A program made the position numbers and the translations under genes. Positions 14,849-22,174 of a DNA stretch of 64,000 nucleotides are shown piece after piece. Location: assembly GCF_002082015.1 (NCBI RefSeq), contig NZ_CP015109.1:520134-584133 (forward strand), in the 5' to 3' direction. The stretch is from Sporosarcina ureae. GTDB lineage: Bacteria > Bacillota > Bacilli > Bacillales_A > Planococcaceae. The stretch's first letter is position 1, and every line of letters starts with the position of its first letter. The notes under the pieces are model-generated. The model did not search any database and was not told the DNA's origin. It saw only the letters and a list, made by a program, of their open reading frames with translations.

Positions 14849-15433
14849 TTACTGTAGTTTGTAACCATGCAATAGCATGTCACTAACTTTAGGTGCTAAT
14901 CTAACTAAATTAAATTTCTGTTCGTTCATCACCCAAGAGGTAATGGTCTCGTCCATTGTGCCAAATAACATCTGCCTTGCTAGTCTCAGGTCAAGATTGG
15001 GAGACAACTCTCCTTTCTCTACCCCTTCTTCAAGCAAAGTATCCAACAAAACCATATATTCTTTCAACACATTATTGATTTGGAATCGCAGATCTTTATT
15101 TGACTGTCTGAGTTCCAATTGTGTGACGATCGCTAAGTGAGGATCTTCTTGTAGGACGGTAAAATGGTTTTCTACAACCAATTGCAATTTTTCTGCAATG
15201 GGAAGATCTCTTTTTAATATTTCTTTAATGTTTTCTACGAATATTTCCATTTTTTCTCTGAATACAGATACGAGGATGTCTTCTTTATTTTTAAAATATA
15301 AATAAATTGTTCCATCCGCAACTCCAGCTTCTTTAGCAATTTTTGAGACTTGTGCTTGGTGGTATCCATTCTCTGCAATCACGATCACTGCAGCATCTAC
15401 AATTTGTTTATATTTAGGTTTTGTTCGCTTCAT
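14849..15433 (-). CDS. fadR: TetR-family regulator of fatty-acid degradation
   Basis: 194 residues. The N-terminal helix-turn-helix (IVDAAVIVIAENGYHQAQVS, then KIAKEAGVADGTIYLYFKNK) is followed by an all-helical ligand domain. In B. subtilis FadR (YsiA) represses beta-oxidation genes and is released by long-chain acyl-CoA. It heads the operon with fadB-etfB-etfA, and a perfect palindrome lies 22 bases upstream of its start (15456-15485), so it is very probably autoregulated. The same name in E. coli refers to an unrelated GntR protein. Confidence 0.92.
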   Translation of the reverse strand: MKRTKPKYKQIVDAAVIVIAENGYHQAQVSKIAKEAGVADGTIYLYFKNKEDILVSVFREKMEIFVENIKEILKRDLPIAEKLQLVVENHFTVLQEDPHLAIVTQLELRQSNKDLRFQINNVLKEYMVLLDTLLEEGVEKGELSPNLDLRLARQMLFGTMDETITSWVMNEQKFNLVRLAPKVSDMLLHGYKLQ

Positions 15434-15455
15434 TAATGTTTCACCACCAAAAAGA

Positions 15456-15485
15456 AAAATATGAATGATGATTCATTCATATTTT
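15456..15485. promoter_or_regulatory. FadR operator (autoregulatory palindrome)
   Basis: Perfect 13-bp arms aaaatatgaatga (15456-15468) and tcattcatatttt (15473-15485) around tgat. The core TGAATGATGATTCATTCA matches the B. subtilis FadR box TGAATGAnTAnTCATTCA except at the centre. It lies in the 90-base gap between lcfA and fadR. Confidence 0.8.
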
Positions 15486-15523
15486 CATATTAATATTCTT
15501 TTGAGTTATAGTCAAGCATTTTG

Positions 15524-17227
15524 TCACGAACTTTTTAACGAATTTTGCACTTCCGTTAGTTTCTTTCGCTCTTCCTCAACTAATGTTCTACGTAAAATTT
15601 TACCTACTGCTGTTTTGGGAAGATCTTCACGGAAATCATAATGCTTTGGAACTTTAAATGCAGCAAGCTGTTTTCTGCAATACGTATCTAATTCTTTTTC
15701 TGTTATGGAATATCCTTCTTTTAACACAATATAAGCTTTAACTGTTTCACCGCGATATGGATCTGGTACACCAGCTACGATACATTCTAGAATGGCTGGA
15801 TGTTCATATAGGACTTCTTCAATCTCACGTGGGTAGACATTGAAGCCGCTTGCGATAATCATATCCTTTTTGCGATCGACAACATAGAAGTATCCGTCCT
15901 CATCCATATACCCTAGATCCCCTGTCAAAAACCATCCATCACGGAATGATTCCTGTGTGTCGTCAGGTCTATTCCAATAACCTGTCATAACTTGAGGTCC
16001 TTTGACTGCAATCTCTCCAATTTCTCCCACTGGTAACGGTTCTGATGAGCCAGGCCCCAGCACACATCCATCCGTATCCGGCCATGGAACTCCGATAGAG
16101 CCACGCTTTTCCAACCCATCCCACACAAAGTTCGCCATAGCAACAGGAGATGTCTCTGTTAAGCCATATCCTTCTACGAGTTTGCCACCTGTTACTGCTT
16201 CAAACTTTTCTTTCACTTCAATTGGTAATGCGGCAGATCCACTGATGCAAGCTTTAATAGAAGATAGATCATATTTTTCTAAATCAGGATGATTCAACAG
16301 TCCAATATAGATTGTAGGTGCACCTGGGAATAACGTAGGTTTTTGTTTGTCAATATCTTGTAATGCAGTCTTGAAATCAAATTTAGGAATCAACACCATT
16401 TTATGACCTTTCATTACAGCGAAAATCAAAACTGTCGTCATCCCATAGACGTGGAAGAACGGTAGAATACCCATAATCGTTTCTTCGCCATCCGTCGTTT
16501 TATATAGCCAAGCACTACACATTTCAGTATTGCTGATTAAATTGGAATGTGTCAGTTCTACACCTTTCGGAGGGCCTGTCGTTCCTCCTGTATACTGCAA
16601 TAAGGCAATATCGCCTTTCTCATAAGCTATATGAATCGGATCAGGTTTTGTTGATTTCATTATTTCGGTATATAAATGATGAATGCCACGATGTTCTACT
16701 TTTACAGTCAACTTATGCTCTTTTTTCTGAATGAAAGGATAAACTAGATTTTTGGGAAATGGAAGATAATCTTTAATTCCCGTAATGATAATATTTTCAA
16801 GCGCAGTTCCATTCATTGCTTTCGTAACCCGTGGAAACAGGATATCAAGTGAAATAATAACCTTTGCACCCGAATCAGAAAGTTGATAGTGCAATTCACG
16901 TTCTGTATACAATGGATTAGTTTGGACTACTATTGCACCTGCATAGAGAATCCCAAAGTATGCGATGGCGCTTTGCGGACAGTTTGGAAGCATGATGGCT
17001 ACGCGATCACCTTTTACAACTCCTAATTTTTGCAAGTAGCTAGCAAATTTTAGAGCAGACTCGTGAAATTCTTTGAACGTGATGTCTTTCCCCATAAAAT
17101 GAATGGCTGTGTTAGTTGAATACTTTTTGCTAGACCTTGTTAGATAGTCTTGCAATGGAATATTTTCGTATTCTAAAGTAGTCGGAATTTCTTTCGGATA
17201 TGCAGCAAGCCAAGGTTTATTTGTCAT
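15524..17227 (-). CDS. lcfA: Long-chain-fatty-acid-CoA ligase
   Basis: ANL-superfamily AMP-forming ligase that activates long-chain fatty acids, the entry step of beta-oxidation. 567 residues. ATP-binding motif LLQYTGGTTGPPKGVELTH, FFHVYGMT, GYGLTETSPVA, the aspartate of GWFLTGDLGYMDEDGYFYVV, the hinge RKKDMIIASGFNVYPREIE and the C-terminal catalytic Lys in PKTAVGKILRR are all present. It precedes fadR in the transcription direction and has its own promoter with an overlapping palindrome. Confidence 0.96.
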   Translation of the reverse strand: MTNKPWLAAYPKEIPTTLEYENIPLQDYLTRSSKKYSTNTAIHFMGKDITFKEFHESALKFASYLQKLGVVKGDRVAIMLPNCPQSAIAYFGILYAGAIVVQTNPLYTERELHYQLSDSGAKVIISLDILFPRVTKAMNGTALENIIITGIKDYLPFPKNLVYPFIQKKEHKLTVKVEHRGIHHLYTEIMKSTKPDPIHIAYEKGDIALLQYTGGTTGPPKGVELTHSNLISNTEMCSAWLYKTTDGEETIMGILPFFHVYGMTTVLIFAVMKGHKMVLIPKFDFKTALQDIDKQKPTLFPGAPTIYIGLLNHPDLEKYDLSSIKACISGSAALPIEVKEKFEAVTGGKLVEGYGLTETSPVAMANFVWDGLEKRGSIGVPWPDTDGCVLGPGSSEPLPVGEIGEIAVKGPQVMTGYWNRPDDTQESFRDGWFLTGDLGYMDEDGYFYVVDRKKDMIIASGFNVYPREIEEVLYEHPAILECIVAGVPDPYRGETVKAYIVLKEGYSITEKELDTYCRKQLAAFKVPKHYDFREDLPKTAVGKILRRTLVEEERKKLTEVQNSLKSS

Positions 17228-17278
17228 CTTTACAACTCCTTTACATTCATGTAATTGTTAGAACATTCCTTATTCATT

Positions 17279-17307
17279 AGTATATCGATAAACTAATTAG
17301 TTTACAA
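17279..17307 (-). promoter_or_regulatory. lcfA promoter with overlapping palindrome
   Basis: Minus strand: -35 TTGTAA (17307-17302), 17-base spacer, -10 TATACT (17284-17279). A perfect 16-base palindrome TAAACTAATTAGTTTA (17289-17304) fills the spacer and covers most of the -35. Its sequence differs from the FadR-type box at 15456. Confidence 0.7.
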
Positions 17308-17495
17308 GATAAATATGAAAGCGCTTTATTCTTTTGCATACATACCTCTTAGTCTATGTGAGAGACAGTACTTATATTCATTTCTAAAAACAGAGAAACT
17401 GAATATAAGATATAAAAGCTTTTCCGCTACAGGGGGAACGCGAGCCCATAGGCGTCGGTCAGCTAAAGCTTCATTCCTCTCCCGCATTTTACATA

Positions 17496-17525
17496 CAAAA
17501 AACACCAAGACCGAGGTCATGGTGT
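17496..17525 (-). terminator. Terminator after the 28-codon membrane gene
   Basis: Minus strand: ACACCATGACC (17525-17515), TC, GGTCTTGGTGT (17512-17502), one T-T mismatch, then TTTTTTG. The first arm overlaps the last codons of the small gene. Confidence 0.8.
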
Positions 17526-17603
17526 GTTATTGAAGAGCCAGTACACGCCGACGAGGGCGAAAAGTACACAGACTACTAATAGTATCTTAATTAATCTTTC
17601 CAT
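17517..17603 (-). CDS. 28-residue single-span membrane protein (unrecognised)
   Basis: The frame encodes MERLIKILLVVCVLF followed by ALVGVYWLFNNTP. It has one hydrophobic helix (about residues 5-24) with a positively charged N-terminus (Arg3, Lys6), so the N-terminus is probably inside. AGGAGA lies 9 bases before the ATG, the gene follows the DUF350 gene by 13 bases, and a terminator overlaps its end. This layout (own ribosome site, tight spacing, terminator right after) supports real translation. No family was recognised. It may form a unit with the DUF350 protein; that is inference from position. Confidence 0.6.
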   Translation of the reverse strand: MERLIKILLVVCVLFALVGVYWLFNNTP

Positions 17604-17616
17604 AATATGCGATCTC

Positions 17617-18030
17617 CTATGAAATACTGGCGCCGATGACGAATGACAGACCTACCGAAATACAGAGCGAAATAAATCCTACGGAGCGGTTGTCAGCCTG
17701 GATCTCCTTGTCCACTTTAAATTTCGGTGTTAGGAATTCGAACAGCAAATAGGCGAAGACGAGAAGCACAAAACCGTATAAGCCCCAGCCCATCATCTGC
17801 GGCAGGCTATTATGCTGCTCGATAGAATAACGGAATATATTAGCGACACCAAATATCTTTCCGCCTGTTGCCATCGCCACTGACAAATTCCCTTTACGGA
17901 TCTCTTCCCAGTTTTTATATTTTGTTACGATTTCAAATAGTACCATTGAGACGATCAAGCACAGTGTAACGACACTGAAATACCCGGCCGTCTCAACTAA
18001 TGGATGACTCCAAAATCCCGTATGATTCAT
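17617..18030 (-). CDS. yshE: DUF350 membrane protein (YshE-like)
   Basis: 137 residues with four predicted membrane segments (about 17-37, 48-65, 76-99 and 117-137). The segments MATGGKIFGVANIFRYS and ADNRSVGFISLC are typical of DUF350. The function of the family is not established. It lies between mutS2 and lcfA as yshE does in B. subtilis, and a tiny membrane-protein gene follows it. Confidence 0.85.
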   Translation of the reverse strand: MNHTGFWSHPLVETAGYFSVVTLCLIVSMVLFEIVTKYKNWEEIRKGNLSVAMATGGKIFGVANIFRYSIEQHNSLPQMMGWGLYGFVLLVFAYLLFEFLTPKFKVDKEIQADNRSVGFISLCISVGLSFVIGASIS

Positions 18031-18093
18031 AACGCCACACCTTCTTTATGTTCTCTTGCTTGTCATACGGCCCAAGCAGCTGAAAGGTTTCAT

Positions 18094-20451
18094 TTATTTT
18101 AATTCTACTACAGTCACGCCACTTCCACCTTCGCCCGCTTCACCAAAGCGATAGGATTTAACGCGTGAATGTTTTTTCAAATATTGTTGAACACCTTGTC
18201 GAAGTGCACCCGTTCCTTTACCGTGAATAATGTTCACTTGATGGTAGTTAGACAGTAACGCGTCATCAATATACTTCTCGGTTCGCGCTAGGGCATCTTC
18301 ATATCGTTCACCACGTAAATCAAGCTCCATTTTAACATGCCCCGAACGCCCTCTTACTGCTGAAACTGTGGTTTGTTTCTTTTCTTTTTCAGGTTTCGTA
18401 TATTGCAATCCCGATTCCGGTAATTTCATCTTCAAAATACCAATTTGAACGACCCACTCTTTGTCTGATACTTTTTCAACAAGAGTTCCTTTTTGTCCAT
18501 AGGCAAGTACTTTCACTTCGTCTCCTTGTTGTAACGGACGAGGTCCTGCTTGAGCTTTAATGGCTTTCTTTTTCTTTTCTTCAGGTGCAGCGCCTTCCAA
18601 ACGCTTTCGAGCTTCGATTAACTCATGCTCCTTCACGCTGGCACCTGCATTCATTCGTAGAGCACGTAAGTCTGAAATAACCGCTTCGGATTCTGTTCTA
18701 GCCTGATCTACGATTTTTTTCGCTCTCTCTTTGGCCGCTTCCGTTAAGCGGTCTTTTTGCTCTTCGAATTCTTGTAATTTATCGTGCAATTCTTTCTTCA
18801 GCTTCTCAGTTTCCAAAAGTACGTCATGTGTACGTTCAGCATCTTTTTCGGATTGTACACGACTCGTTTCAAGAGAGGCAATCATGGAATCTACTTCTCC
18901 GCGATTTTCTCCTGTGAAACTCTTTGCGCGATCGATTACATGACTTTGTAAACCTAGTCGTTTGGAAATTTCAAACGCGTTACTTCGTCCTGGTACACCG
19001 ATCAGTAAACGATAAGTCGGGCTCAATGTGTCAATGTCAAATTCAACACTCGCATTGGCTACACCTGTTCGGTTAAAGCTATACGCTTTTAATTCGGGAT
19101 AGTGAGTGGTCGCCATCACACGTGCGCCAGTGCCGTGCACTTCATCCAAAATGGATATGGCAAGAGCAGCACCTTCTTGAGGATCTGTCCCTGAACCTAA
19201 TTCATCGAATAATAATAGAGAACGTTCATCGAACTTCTTCAATATATTCACAATGTTGACCATATGAGATGAAAACGTACTCAAGCTCTGTTCGATTGAT
19301 TGCTCATCACCGATATCTGCATAAATCGAATCAAAGACGGCGACTTCAGAGCCATCAAGTACTGGAATAGGTAGACCTGCTTGTGCCATCAACGTGCAAA
19401 GGCCAACTGTTTTTAGTGTAACTGTTTTACCACCTGTATTTGGACCTGTGATCACAATGGTTGTGACATCGGCGCCAAATTCAATCGTATTCGCTACCGC
19501 TTCATTAATCGGTAGGAGCGGGTGACGCGCTTTAGAAAGCCGCATATAGCCATCTGCGTTAACTGCTGGTTTTGTACATTTATTTGCAGTACCATACTTA
19601 GCTTTTGCTAAAATGACATCTACTTCTGCCAATAGCTGCACCAATGTAAATAGCTCATGGGCGATTTCTTGAATACTTGCAGATAAGGCAAGCAAAATCT
19701 TTTCGATTTCTTCCTGCTCTTTGACTTTTAGTTCACGAATTTCGTTATTCGCTTGTACGACTGCATCCGGTTCGATGAATAACGTCTGGCCAGAGGATGA
19801 CATATCGTGAATTACACCGCCATAGTGTGAACGATATTCTGCTTTAACGGGAATACAATAACGATCATTTCGCATTGTGACGATTGCATCAGACAACATT
19901 TTCGATGCATTTTTCCCTCTCGTATAACTTTCAAGACGTTCACGCACACGACTTTCTTGGATACGTAAACTTTGACGGATCGAACGTAACGCGGATGAAG
20001 CACTATCCATCACTCGACCATTGTCATCGATCGCTGCATTGACTTCATGTTCGATTGCCGTCAGAATCGGCATCGCTTCCTTACGTGCGATTAAATGAGG
20101 AATAGTAATCTCGTCTTCAGCTGTAACCGCTTCTAAAAACTGACGAAGAATTCTACTGGCCCGGATTGTGTCAGCAATTTCCACTAATTCCATTGCGCTT
20201 AACATGCCGCCAATTTGCGCTCGTTTAGCATGGGATCGAATATCATGGATTCCACCCATTGGGACATTCCCGCGGATTCGTAAAAGTGCTAATCCTTCAT
20301 CTGTTTCCTCAAGTAACCGATTGACATCTTCGAGGTTTGTTGAAGGTACTAACTGCTCTATATGTGCACGGCCCGCAATGGACGTACATTGTGCCGCTAC
20401 TTGTTGAATGATTTTATCAAATTCAAGTGTTTTTAAGACACGCTTTTCCAA
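18094..20451 (-). CDS. mutS2: MutS2 (Smr-domain DNA/ribosome-associated ATPase)
   Basis: 785 residues, the usual length of MutS2. Core MutS clamp and ATPase with Walker A GPNTGGKTVTLKT, Walker B LLFDELGSGTDPQEG and the TTHYPELK switch, a long coiled coil (about 515-630), a KOW-like segment (GDEVKVLAYGQKGTLVEKVS), and a C-terminal Smr domain with LDLRGERYEDA and IIHGKGTGALR. It lacks the mismatch-binding domain of MutS. In B. subtilis it acts on collided ribosomes; in other species suppression of recombination was proposed. It follows polX by 16 bases. Confidence 0.96.
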   Translation of the reverse strand: MEKRVLKTLEFDKIIQQVAAQCTSIAGRAHIEQLVPSTNLEDVNRLLEETDEGLALLRIRGNVPMGGIHDIRSHAKRAQIGGMLSAMELVEIADTIRASRILRQFLEAVTAEDEITIPHLIARKEAMPILTAIEHEVNAAIDDNGRVMDSASSALRSIRQSLRIQESRVRERLESYTRGKNASKMLSDAIVTMRNDRYCIPVKAEYRSHYGGVIHDMSSSGQTLFIEPDAVVQANNEIRELKVKEQEEIEKILLALSASIQEIAHELFTLVQLLAEVDVILAKAKYGTANKCTKPAVNADGYMRLSKARHPLLPINEAVANTIEFGADVTTIVITGPNTGGKTVTLKTVGLCTLMAQAGLPIPVLDGSEVAVFDSIYADIGDEQSIEQSLSTFSSHMVNIVNILKKFDERSLLLFDELGSGTDPQEGAALAISILDEVHGTGARVMATTHYPELKAYSFNRTGVANASVEFDIDTLSPTYRLLIGVPGRSNAFEISKRLGLQSHVIDRAKSFTGENRGEVDSMIASLETSRVQSEKDAERTHDVLLETEKLKKELHDKLQEFEEQKDRLTEAAKERAKKIVDQARTESEAVISDLRALRMNAGASVKEHELIEARKRLEGAAPEEKKKKAIKAQAGPRPLQQGDEVKVLAYGQKGTLVEKVSDKEWVVQIGILKMKLPESGLQYTKPEKEKKQTTVSAVRGRSGHVKMELDLRGERYEDALARTEKYIDDALLSNYHQVNIIHGKGTGALRQGVQQYLKKHSRVKSYRFGEAGEGGSGVTVVELK

Positions 20452-20467
20452 TGTCTTACACTCCCTT

Positions 20468-22174
20468 TCATCTACGGATCACTTTCTCAATAAATGTCTC
20501 AAGCGGCCATGTATTGACTACTTGTTCAGCAGCAAGCCAAGCTTTTTGTGCGTATTCTACGCCAATCGGCATAATATCAAGCTGTTCAGTCGCATGCGCA
20601 TCTGTATTGATTGCAATATTGACACCAGCTTCTATTGCTTGCATGATGTGTTCTGTGCGTAAATCCAAACGATATGGACTGGCGTTCACTTCTAGTATTT
20701 TGCCGTATTCGCTCGCCCACTTGATGAGCTGCTCGATATCCGGATTATACCCTTCACGTTGACCAATAATACGACCTGTCGGGTGGGCAATCATGTGTAC
20801 GTGCGGATTTTTACACGCGGCATGCAGACGCTCCATAATTTGCTCTTGTGGTTGATTGAAACTAGAGTGAATGGACGCAATGACAAAGTCAAGTTGCTCT
20901 AGAATCTCATCTTCAAAATCTAACTTCCCATCTGGCAGAATGTCCATCTCCGTTCCGCAGAACACCTCAATATCATCGTACTTCGCGTTCACTGCACGAA
21001 TTTCTTCTATTTGCTTCAATAAACGCTCAGGTGTTAAACCATTTGCTACTTTTAAATAATGCGAATGATCGGTGATGACCAAATGTGAATAACCTTTTGC
21101 ACGACAGGCTTCTACCATTTCTTCAATGGAATGACCGCCATCTGACCAAGTGGTATGCATATGCAAGTCGGAACGAATCAATTCAGGCGTGACAAGTGTA
21201 GAGATTTCTTCTGCTCGATCAAGCTCCGTTCCGTCCTTACGAATACTTGGAGGAATAAACGGCAAATCAAAGTGTGCAAAGAATTCCGTTTCACTAGAAA
21301 ATGTCTGCACATGTCCTGTTTCGTCTTCCACACCGTATTCACTAATTTTCTGTTTGCGATTTTTAGCCAACTGACGCATCCGTATATTATGTGCGGCTGA
21401 GCCAGTAAAGTGATGAAGTGCTGTTGCGAATTGGTCTTCCGTGACAAAACGGAAATCTGCATCGATAGGGTTTTCTGTATCAAGTGAAATCGACAGTTTA
21501 GCGTCCCCTGCTGCAATCACTTTTTCGATCGGTAAAGCAGCCAATATTTTTTCCCGGACGATTTGCGGTTCTTCAGTTACGAGAATCCAGTCTACATCTG
21601 AACTTTCTTCTTCTCGCCTGCGATAACTCCCTGCTACTTGATACTTTTGAATCTCATCGATCAACTCTAATTCAGCTTGCACGATCTCAACGACTTTAGT
21701 CACTTGCCAAATCGGTGTCTTACCGGAACGATTTGCAAGTATTTCAATTTCACGCAATAAATTTTCTTCTGTCTTTTTACCGAATCCAGGAATTTTGCTT
21801 ACCTCTTGTCGTTCGCAAGCCGCTTGAAGTGATTCAATCGAATCAATATTTAACGCTTCTCGTAGTTTGGCTATTTTCTTTCCGCCAAGTCCAGGGATAT
21901 TCAAGAGAGGAATCAATCCTTTCGGAACTTTCTCTTCAAGCTCCGTCAAGACATCTGAAGTTCCTTTCTCCATCAAATCCACAATGACCGCACCGGTCCC
22001 TTTGCCGATTCCCTTCAATGACAAGATATCATCCATCTCCGCAAGACTTCTCGTGTCCAATTCTAAAGTCGAAGCGGCTTTTCTAAATGCAGCTACCTTG
22101 AAATGATTTTCTCCAAGTAGTTCCATGTATAAGGCAATTTTTTCAAACGTACGGATTATCGTCTTTTTATTCAC
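20468..22174 (-). CDS. polX: DNA polymerase/3'-5' exonuclease PolX
   Basis: Family X repair polymerase, 568 residues. An N-terminal helix-hairpin-helix region (SLKGIGKGTGAVI and NIPGLGGKKIAKLREAL) is followed by the palm with GSYRRREEESSDVDW (metal-binding aspartates). A C-terminal PHP domain begins at SDLHMHTTWSDGGHSIEEM and contains TDHSHYLKVANG, GTEMDIL and AINTDAHAT. Matches YshC of B. subtilis, base-excision repair. Bacterial PolX proteins with this PHP domain carry the exonuclease. Confidence 0.95.
   Translation of the reverse strand: MNKKTIIRTFEKIALYMELLGENHFKVAAFRKAASTLELDTRSLAEMDDILSLKGIGKGTGAVIVDLMEKGTSDVLTELEEKVPKGLIPLLNIPGLGGKKIAKLREALNIDSIESLQAACERQEVSKIPGFGKKTEENLLREIEILANRSGKTPIWQVTKVVEIVQAELELIDEIQKYQVAGSYRRREEESSDVDWILVTEEPQIVREKILAALPIEKVIAAGDAKLSISLDTENPIDADFRFVTEDQFATALHHFTGSAAHNIRMRQLAKNRKQKISEYGVEDETGHVQTFSSETEFFAHFDLPFIPPSIRKDGTELDRAEEISTLVTPELIRSDLHMHTTWSDGGHSIEEMVEACRAKGYSHLVITDHSHYLKVANGLTPERLLKQIEEIRAVNAKYDDIEVFCGTEMDILPDGKLDFEDEILEQLDFVIASIHSSFNQPQEQIMERLHAACKNPHVHMIAHPTGRIIGQREGYNPDIEQLIKWASEYGKILEVNASPYRLDLRTEHIMQAIEAGVNIAINTDAHATEQLDIMPIGVEYAQKAWLAAEQVVNTWPLETFIEKVIRR

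Follow-up and report, generated by a model that had tools for sequence, protein, structure and literature searches.

A conserved single-helix membrane microprotein encoded at the mutS2 locus of Bacilli

Here, we describe a 28-codon gene on the minus strand at positions 17517–17603 of the window (the whole 64 kb stretch of DNA analyzed), which runs from ATG to TGA and encodes a protein with one hydrophobic helix. That this is a real, conserved protein appears close to certain. Together with its relatives, it constitutes a new family of conserved membrane microproteins. This family is broader and of greater age than an earlier note on this DNA assumed, and its link is to the mutS2 locus, not strictly to the adjacent DUF350 gene. 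The analysis thus adds a class-wide family of about 24–36 residues, without significant match in Pfam, NCBIfam or the PDB, at the locus of a ribosome rescue factor. The short conserved motif and the natural losses in both directions offer a handle on what the DUF350/mutS2 locus does at the membrane.

The microprotein gene, its signals and its coding character

Read from 17603 to 17517, the minus strand gives MERLIKILLVVCVLFALVGVYWLFNNTP, with the TGA stop at 17517–17519. The earlier note had described a 28-codon ORF without naming its strand; the ORF exists as described and lies on the minus strand. It follows the DUF350 gene (17617–18030, minus strand), which encodes a four-helix membrane protein of 137 aa that scores above the PF03994 cutoff (E 5.3e-34; 117.6 bits vs 26) and is presumably of the YshE/YjfL type. 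Upstream of DUF350, on the same strand, lies mutS2 (18094–20451), with MutS_V, Smr, and MSSS domains. The DUF350 stop and the microprotein ATG are separated by 13 nt, and a Shine-Dalgarno motif read from the sequence, AGGAGA (17613–17618, minus strand), overlaps the TAG stop of DUF350 and lies 9 nt before the ATG; both distances are those given in the earlier note. An SD-like motif, defined by a permissive pattern, was present within 22 nt upstream in 165 of 175 relatives.

Folding points to an intrinsic terminator at 17497–17525 (minus strand), consisting of a hairpin (17502–17525) followed by six T (17497–17502); the folding energy of the 47-nt segment 17489–17535 is -13.4 kcal/mol. As had been claimed, the ORF ends inside the first arm of this terminator, the TGA at 17517–17519 being located within the 5' arm. 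A simple terminator scan did not report the hairpin at 17502–17525, we think because a mismatch splits the stem. Downstream of the terminator, an AMP-binding gene (acyl-CoA ligase type) occupies 15524–17227 of the minus strand. Between the terminator and the lcfA-type gene, there is a G+C-rich block (17419–17488). A 25-base probe from this block has a single occurrence in the window, and a 16-base core of it was absent from the fetched loci, except for copies of the same locus.

The microprotein was matched in all 68 genomes of the genus, with E-values from 3e-14 to 6e-5. The locus could be read in 67 of these, and in each the frame follows DUF350 after 3 to 31 bases, the smallest gaps arising because an earlier possible start was taken. 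Start codons in these 67 loci are ATG (58), GTG (7), and TTG (2), and the encoded proteins are 25 to 36 residues long. In the 68th genome (G057), DUF350 and the microprotein gene are on different contigs (L099 and L100), and at the point where the two genes would be expected to join, both contig ends share the same short repeats, which looks like an insertion of repeats between the genes.

Over the 64 distinct genus sequences, pN/pS is 0.26. Among the informative pairs (n = 135, pS between 0.05 and 0.5), dN was lower than dS in every one, with a summed dN/dS of about 0.17. The two shifted frames of this DNA yield 0.62 and 1.44, and DUF350 yields 0.10. The earlier note had proposed searching for the frame in relatives and for a Ka/Ks below 1, and both were found. 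It had further suggested that a chance frame would have third-position changes no commoner than others; across the 64 sequences, the third codon position is the most variable. Seven residues are invariant among these sequences (E2, L4, K6, L8, F15, G19, and W22), all of which except W22, with its single codon, are written with two to six codons. The signal is also specific: of 2068 short start-to-stop readings (18–70 aa) of the 64 kb window, only this ORF matches the family profile (E 3.8e-15, for a 50-row profile that includes the window sequence itself), and the next has an E-value of 1.3.

Given this protein-like pattern of change and the presence in all 68 genus genomes, we consider the frame to be a coding gene whose ORF is probably translated. 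The gene is very short and overlaps a terminator in this genome, as might be expected of a chance frame or a regulatory leader in which the peptide itself is irrelevant. This reading has a negligible probability in our estimate: amino acids are conserved and synonymous change is free, and the genes downstream of the microprotein vary between families, so that it leads no fixed gene.

Distribution in Bacilli and association with mutS2 and DUF350

With a 20-row profile, 254 of the 261 genomes of the window's family were matched at E ≤ 0.01, and with a 33-row profile, 256 were matched at E ≤ 0.05; the order-level set comprises the same 261 genomes. Two of the seven genomes missed by the 20-row profile (G077 and G078) carry divergent copies, and the remaining five all belong to genus g7. 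DUF350 was found in 261 of 261. When 30 family genomes were picked to cover 18 other genera, including four misses of the 20-row profile, the frame was located behind DUF350 in 28. In G087 and G088, both of genus g7, the microprotein gene is evidently gone because DUF350 leads directly into a terminator-like hairpin.

Beyond the family, 202 of 398 genomes drawn evenly from the class matched at E ≤ 0.01 (38 of them from the window's own family), on per-genome E-values, so that a few of the weakest matches would be due to chance; the 196 genomes without a match at this threshold include some that carry divergent copies. The frame was also present behind DUF350 in all 80 named loci, a non-random sample made up of the best 80 of 542 relatives of a Metabacillus-type DUF350. 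These loci mostly bear Bacillaceae-type names (Metabacillus, Peribacillus, Neobacillus, Priestia, Cytobacillus, Rossellomorea, Anoxybacillus, and others), and the gap between DUF350 and the microprotein gene has a median of 13 nt and is at most 20 nt in 75 of the 80. Three records, titled Paenibacillus sp., Pseudomonas sp., and Sporosarcina globispora (L274, L281, and L305), encode microproteins near-identical to those of Cytobacillus records, and their names may therefore be wrong or outdated.

The microprotein gene is thus old and kept beside mutS2 in many Bacilli. Type I toxins show a patchy, mobile or multicopy distribution. A toxin of this type, or another small hydrophobic toxin, would account for the small size and the single hydrophobic helix, and one relative weakly resembles NCBIfam TsaT (E 0.0056; 17.1 bits against a cutoff of 80). 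The microprotein is distributed differently, occurring in 68 of 68 genus genomes, in 256 of 261 family genomes, and at one locus in 32 of 35 class-level loci. Most genomes contain one match, the chromosomal locus is fixed over the class, and the gene is under purifying selection. Furthermore, no antitoxin RNA family was found nearby in a search of window positions 15000–21000 against Rfam, which covers catalogued RNAs only, at E ≤ 1. We therefore regard a toxin as extremely unlikely.

The association with DUF350 was assessed in 35 class-level loci that were fetched by a microprotein match, 20 of them ranking with the strongest matches and drawn from various families, and the other 15 chosen partly to favor genomes without a strong DUF350. 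The order mutS2-DUF350-microprotein was observed in 22 of these loci. Another 10 have no DUF350 at the locus, and their microprotein gene is behind mutS2, with gaps of 17 to 196 bases, a proportion that is no estimate for the class because weak or absent DUF350 was partly the basis for choosing the loci. Accordingly, in 32 of the 35 loci, the microprotein gene is directly behind either DUF350 or mutS2. The three deviating loci are L220, where it is about 1.3 kb behind mutS2, and L217 and L218, where it is near neither gene. The latter two are from family f36, and their similar short frame (KRLSIILFVLCMLFLALGLWFM and relatives) lies far from both mutS2 and DUF350; that of L217 is behind what we take to be a methyltransferase-like gene.

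Family f9, presumably the Staphylococcaceae judging from the downstream trxA and uvrC-like genes, carries the microprotein in all 24 genomes sampled from four genera, and a fifth genus yielded one weak match in 57 genomes. At all 12 f9 loci inspected, the gene lies 24–35 bases behind mutS2, and DUF350 was not found within 1.5 kb behind mutS2. Two side observations concern family f22. Three loci (L199, L204, and L205) contain a frame with a ferredoxin-like CxxxxCxxC motif between DUF350 and the microprotein gene, and two (L205 and L210) have, by eye, a promoter-like TTGAAC-17-TATAAT before the microprotein gene, which suggests that it can be expressed alone.

Outside the window's own family, 126 genomes have both genes, 38 have the microprotein without a strong DUF350 (E < 1e-30), 40 have DUF350 only, and 155 have neither, in counts that ignore kinship. 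Among the 164 microprotein-positive genomes of this set, 18 lack any DUF350 match. Inspection of 13 of the 40 DUF350-only genomes revealed four clear divergent copies of the microprotein (L191, L192, L199, and L203) and two less clear ones (L195 and L196); in one set of 20 loci, at least 7 have DUF350 without the microprotein.

The earlier note had proposed that the microprotein and DUF350 make up a two-part membrane unit. What holds is that the two genes are co-directional and usually tightly spaced; what does not is that the pairing is obligate. In its strict form, with the microprotein as a dedicated DUF350 subunit that has no role without DUF350, the proposal draws on this tight spacing, on the 22 loci with the three genes in order, and on the co-occurrence outside the family. 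Nevertheless, the 10 loci in which the microprotein follows mutS2 without DUF350, the 18 genomes devoid of any DUF350 match, and the persistence of DUF350 alone in G087, G088 and other loci make the strict form unlikely. DUF350 and the microprotein are linked by locus, not by strict mutual need, and the steadier neighbor of the microprotein is mutS2.

The mutS2 loci of 30 microprotein-negative genomes (28 from the class sample and two from the f9 sample) served as a control. When the readings behind mutS2 were scanned with a broad profile, five genomes gave a hit at E < 0.001: three divergent copies behind DUF350 (genus g34), one copy behind mutS2, and one on the opposite strand further off. 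The other 25 had no profile match behind mutS2, where one of them lacks sequence and another has only 924 bases; hence, lying behind mutS2 does not suffice for a frame to match the profile. The gene mutS2 itself is present in all 30 and is thus common without the microprotein.

This neighborhood raises a reading centered on MutS2. In B. subtilis, ribosome collisions recruit MutS2, which splits stalled ribosomes (PMC10897456). The microprotein could then be a membrane arm that brings MutS2, or the substrates of this rescue factor for collided ribosomes, to the membrane. The persistence of mutS2 as the neighbor where DUF350 is lost (in 10 of 35 loci and in 12 of 12 in f9) and the rescue role of MutS2 at ribosome collisions (PMC10897456) would fit such an arm. 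The control shows, on the other side, that MutS2 does not need the microprotein; the cytoplasmic tail would be merely about 6 residues long; operon sharing is not contact; and the passages of PMC10897456 that describe the rescue role are silent on a role at the membrane. We accordingly hold a membrane arm to be quite improbable. The same low standing applies to its fuller version, in which the microprotein would dock the rescue of collided ribosomes at the membrane, ribosomes that stall during membrane-protein insertion would be split there, and DUF350 would be a frequent helper.

Protein anatomy and proposed role

Among 177 distinct sequences, L4 and G19 are invariant, and F15 is found in 175, L8 in 173, and K6 in 170; this set excludes the f9 and control-locus sequences, and G19 is replaced by A in three control loci of f16-g34. 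Position 8 holds L or M, position 12 a small residue (C, S, A or G), and position 22 an aromatic one (Y, W or F). Permutation gives a mean conservation moment of 3.2 at 100 degrees, and the observed value is 6.4 (p 0.03); the test is weak, since the sequences are related and almost equal values arise at 90 and 160–170 degrees. K or R occurs at positions 2–7 in all 177 sequences, and few K or R follow position 20.

The designation of the gene in the earlier note as one for a single-helix membrane protein is supported. In our proposal, the ORF is a gene of the Bacilli mutS2 locus that is translated and has been passed on vertically. Its product would be a single-pass membrane protein of 24–36 aa, with a start of the type M-E-K/R/T-L-x-K. 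By the positive-inside rule, the K/R at positions 2–7 would place the N-terminus in the cytoplasm and the C-terminus outside. The helix face composed of L4, L8, the small residue at 12, F15, G19, and the aromatic residue at 22, kept over many families, most likely packs on another transmembrane helix: on this one face, a glycine lies seven positions from a small residue and a phenylalanine falls in between, an arrangement that looks like a helix-helix contact.

The microprotein might then serve a larger membrane protein as a small accessory or regulatory subunit. Our confidence in such a helix-packing subunit is evenly divided, and the overall reading, an accessory single-pass membrane microprotein of the mutS2 locus, strikes us as an even call, with the topology, packing face and partner all predicted. 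DUF350 would be the natural candidate partner where it is present, and a direct partnership is possible, if somewhat doubtful. It would not be the sole partner, as the microprotein is kept where DUF350 is gone; at such loci, the microprotein would have another partner or act with itself.

The AlphaFold2 model of the DUF350 protein (17617–18030; mean pLDDT 89.7, pTM 0.79) is that of a confident helical membrane protein. The model consists of two similar halves, each with a helix, a short helix, and a helix, a likeness that suggests an old internal duplication. A PDB search with the DUF350 profile gave one match (E 0.091), and Foldseek with the model gave none at E ≤ 0.001 (best E 2.1). With VIA-align, the best hit was chain 9n9j_7 of a Sec61 translocon structure (Z 7.8, rmsd 3.7, 127 aligned), which we take to be TRAP gamma; this likeness was set aside and nothing was drawn from it, because helical bundles may merely have a common arrangement. 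B. subtilis carries a DUF350 gene. Elsewhere in bacteria, DUF350 is found in operons with PspA-type proteins (PMC11237479). The part of PMC4602095 that bears on YjfL contains it only as an entry in a table of predicted structures, and the apparent DUF350 mention in PMC10433244 is of DUF3509 and irrelevant.

Comparison with known families

The window protein has no Pfam or NCBIfam match above cutoff (best E 0.13 and 0.37, respectively), and no model of either database exceeded its cutoff when ten relatives were added, the best scores being about 17 bits. These sub-threshold scores include NCBIfam KPN_two_small (E 0.0033, 17.0 of 33 bits), the best of all, obtained with one relative whose query was one letter off, and, for relatives, NCBIfam SE1626 (E 0.0042). 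A PDB search with the microprotein profile gave no match at E ≤ 10. Among the matches listed, the titles and abstract openings of open-licence papers do not describe the small gene.

The NCBIfam scans of the window protein and ten relatives contained no row for Prli42, for which a model presumably exists in that database; HMMER filters can drop matches this short. By size and spread, the nearest known kind is Prli42, a very small protein of the Listeria stressosome that crosses the membrane once and keeps its N-terminus in the cytosol, as predicted for the microprotein. It is described as conserved in Firmicutes in the title of its first report, cited in PMC6614362, which also states that Prli42 binds RsbR via K4, K5, and R8. 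The window protein differs in having L4, I5, and L8, with K4, K5, and R8 missing, and in all 177 relatives, position 4 is L and position 8 is either L or M; membership in the Prli42 family was set aside.

The two neighbors resemble the microprotein in location only. DUF350 (PF03994) is encoded by its usual neighbor gene, but the microprotein matches no DUF350 model and survives without DUF350. The gene for MutS2 (B. subtilis MutSB) adjoins the microprotein gene when DUF350 is missing, but MutS2 is a cytosolic multi-domain rescue factor for stalled ribosomes and has no sequence in common with the microprotein.

AcrZ, KdpF, and CydX are small accessory subunits of membrane complexes. They share no sequence match with the microprotein, whose PDB profile search was empty, and the likeness would be one of working principle, in that a single short helix packs on a larger membrane protein.
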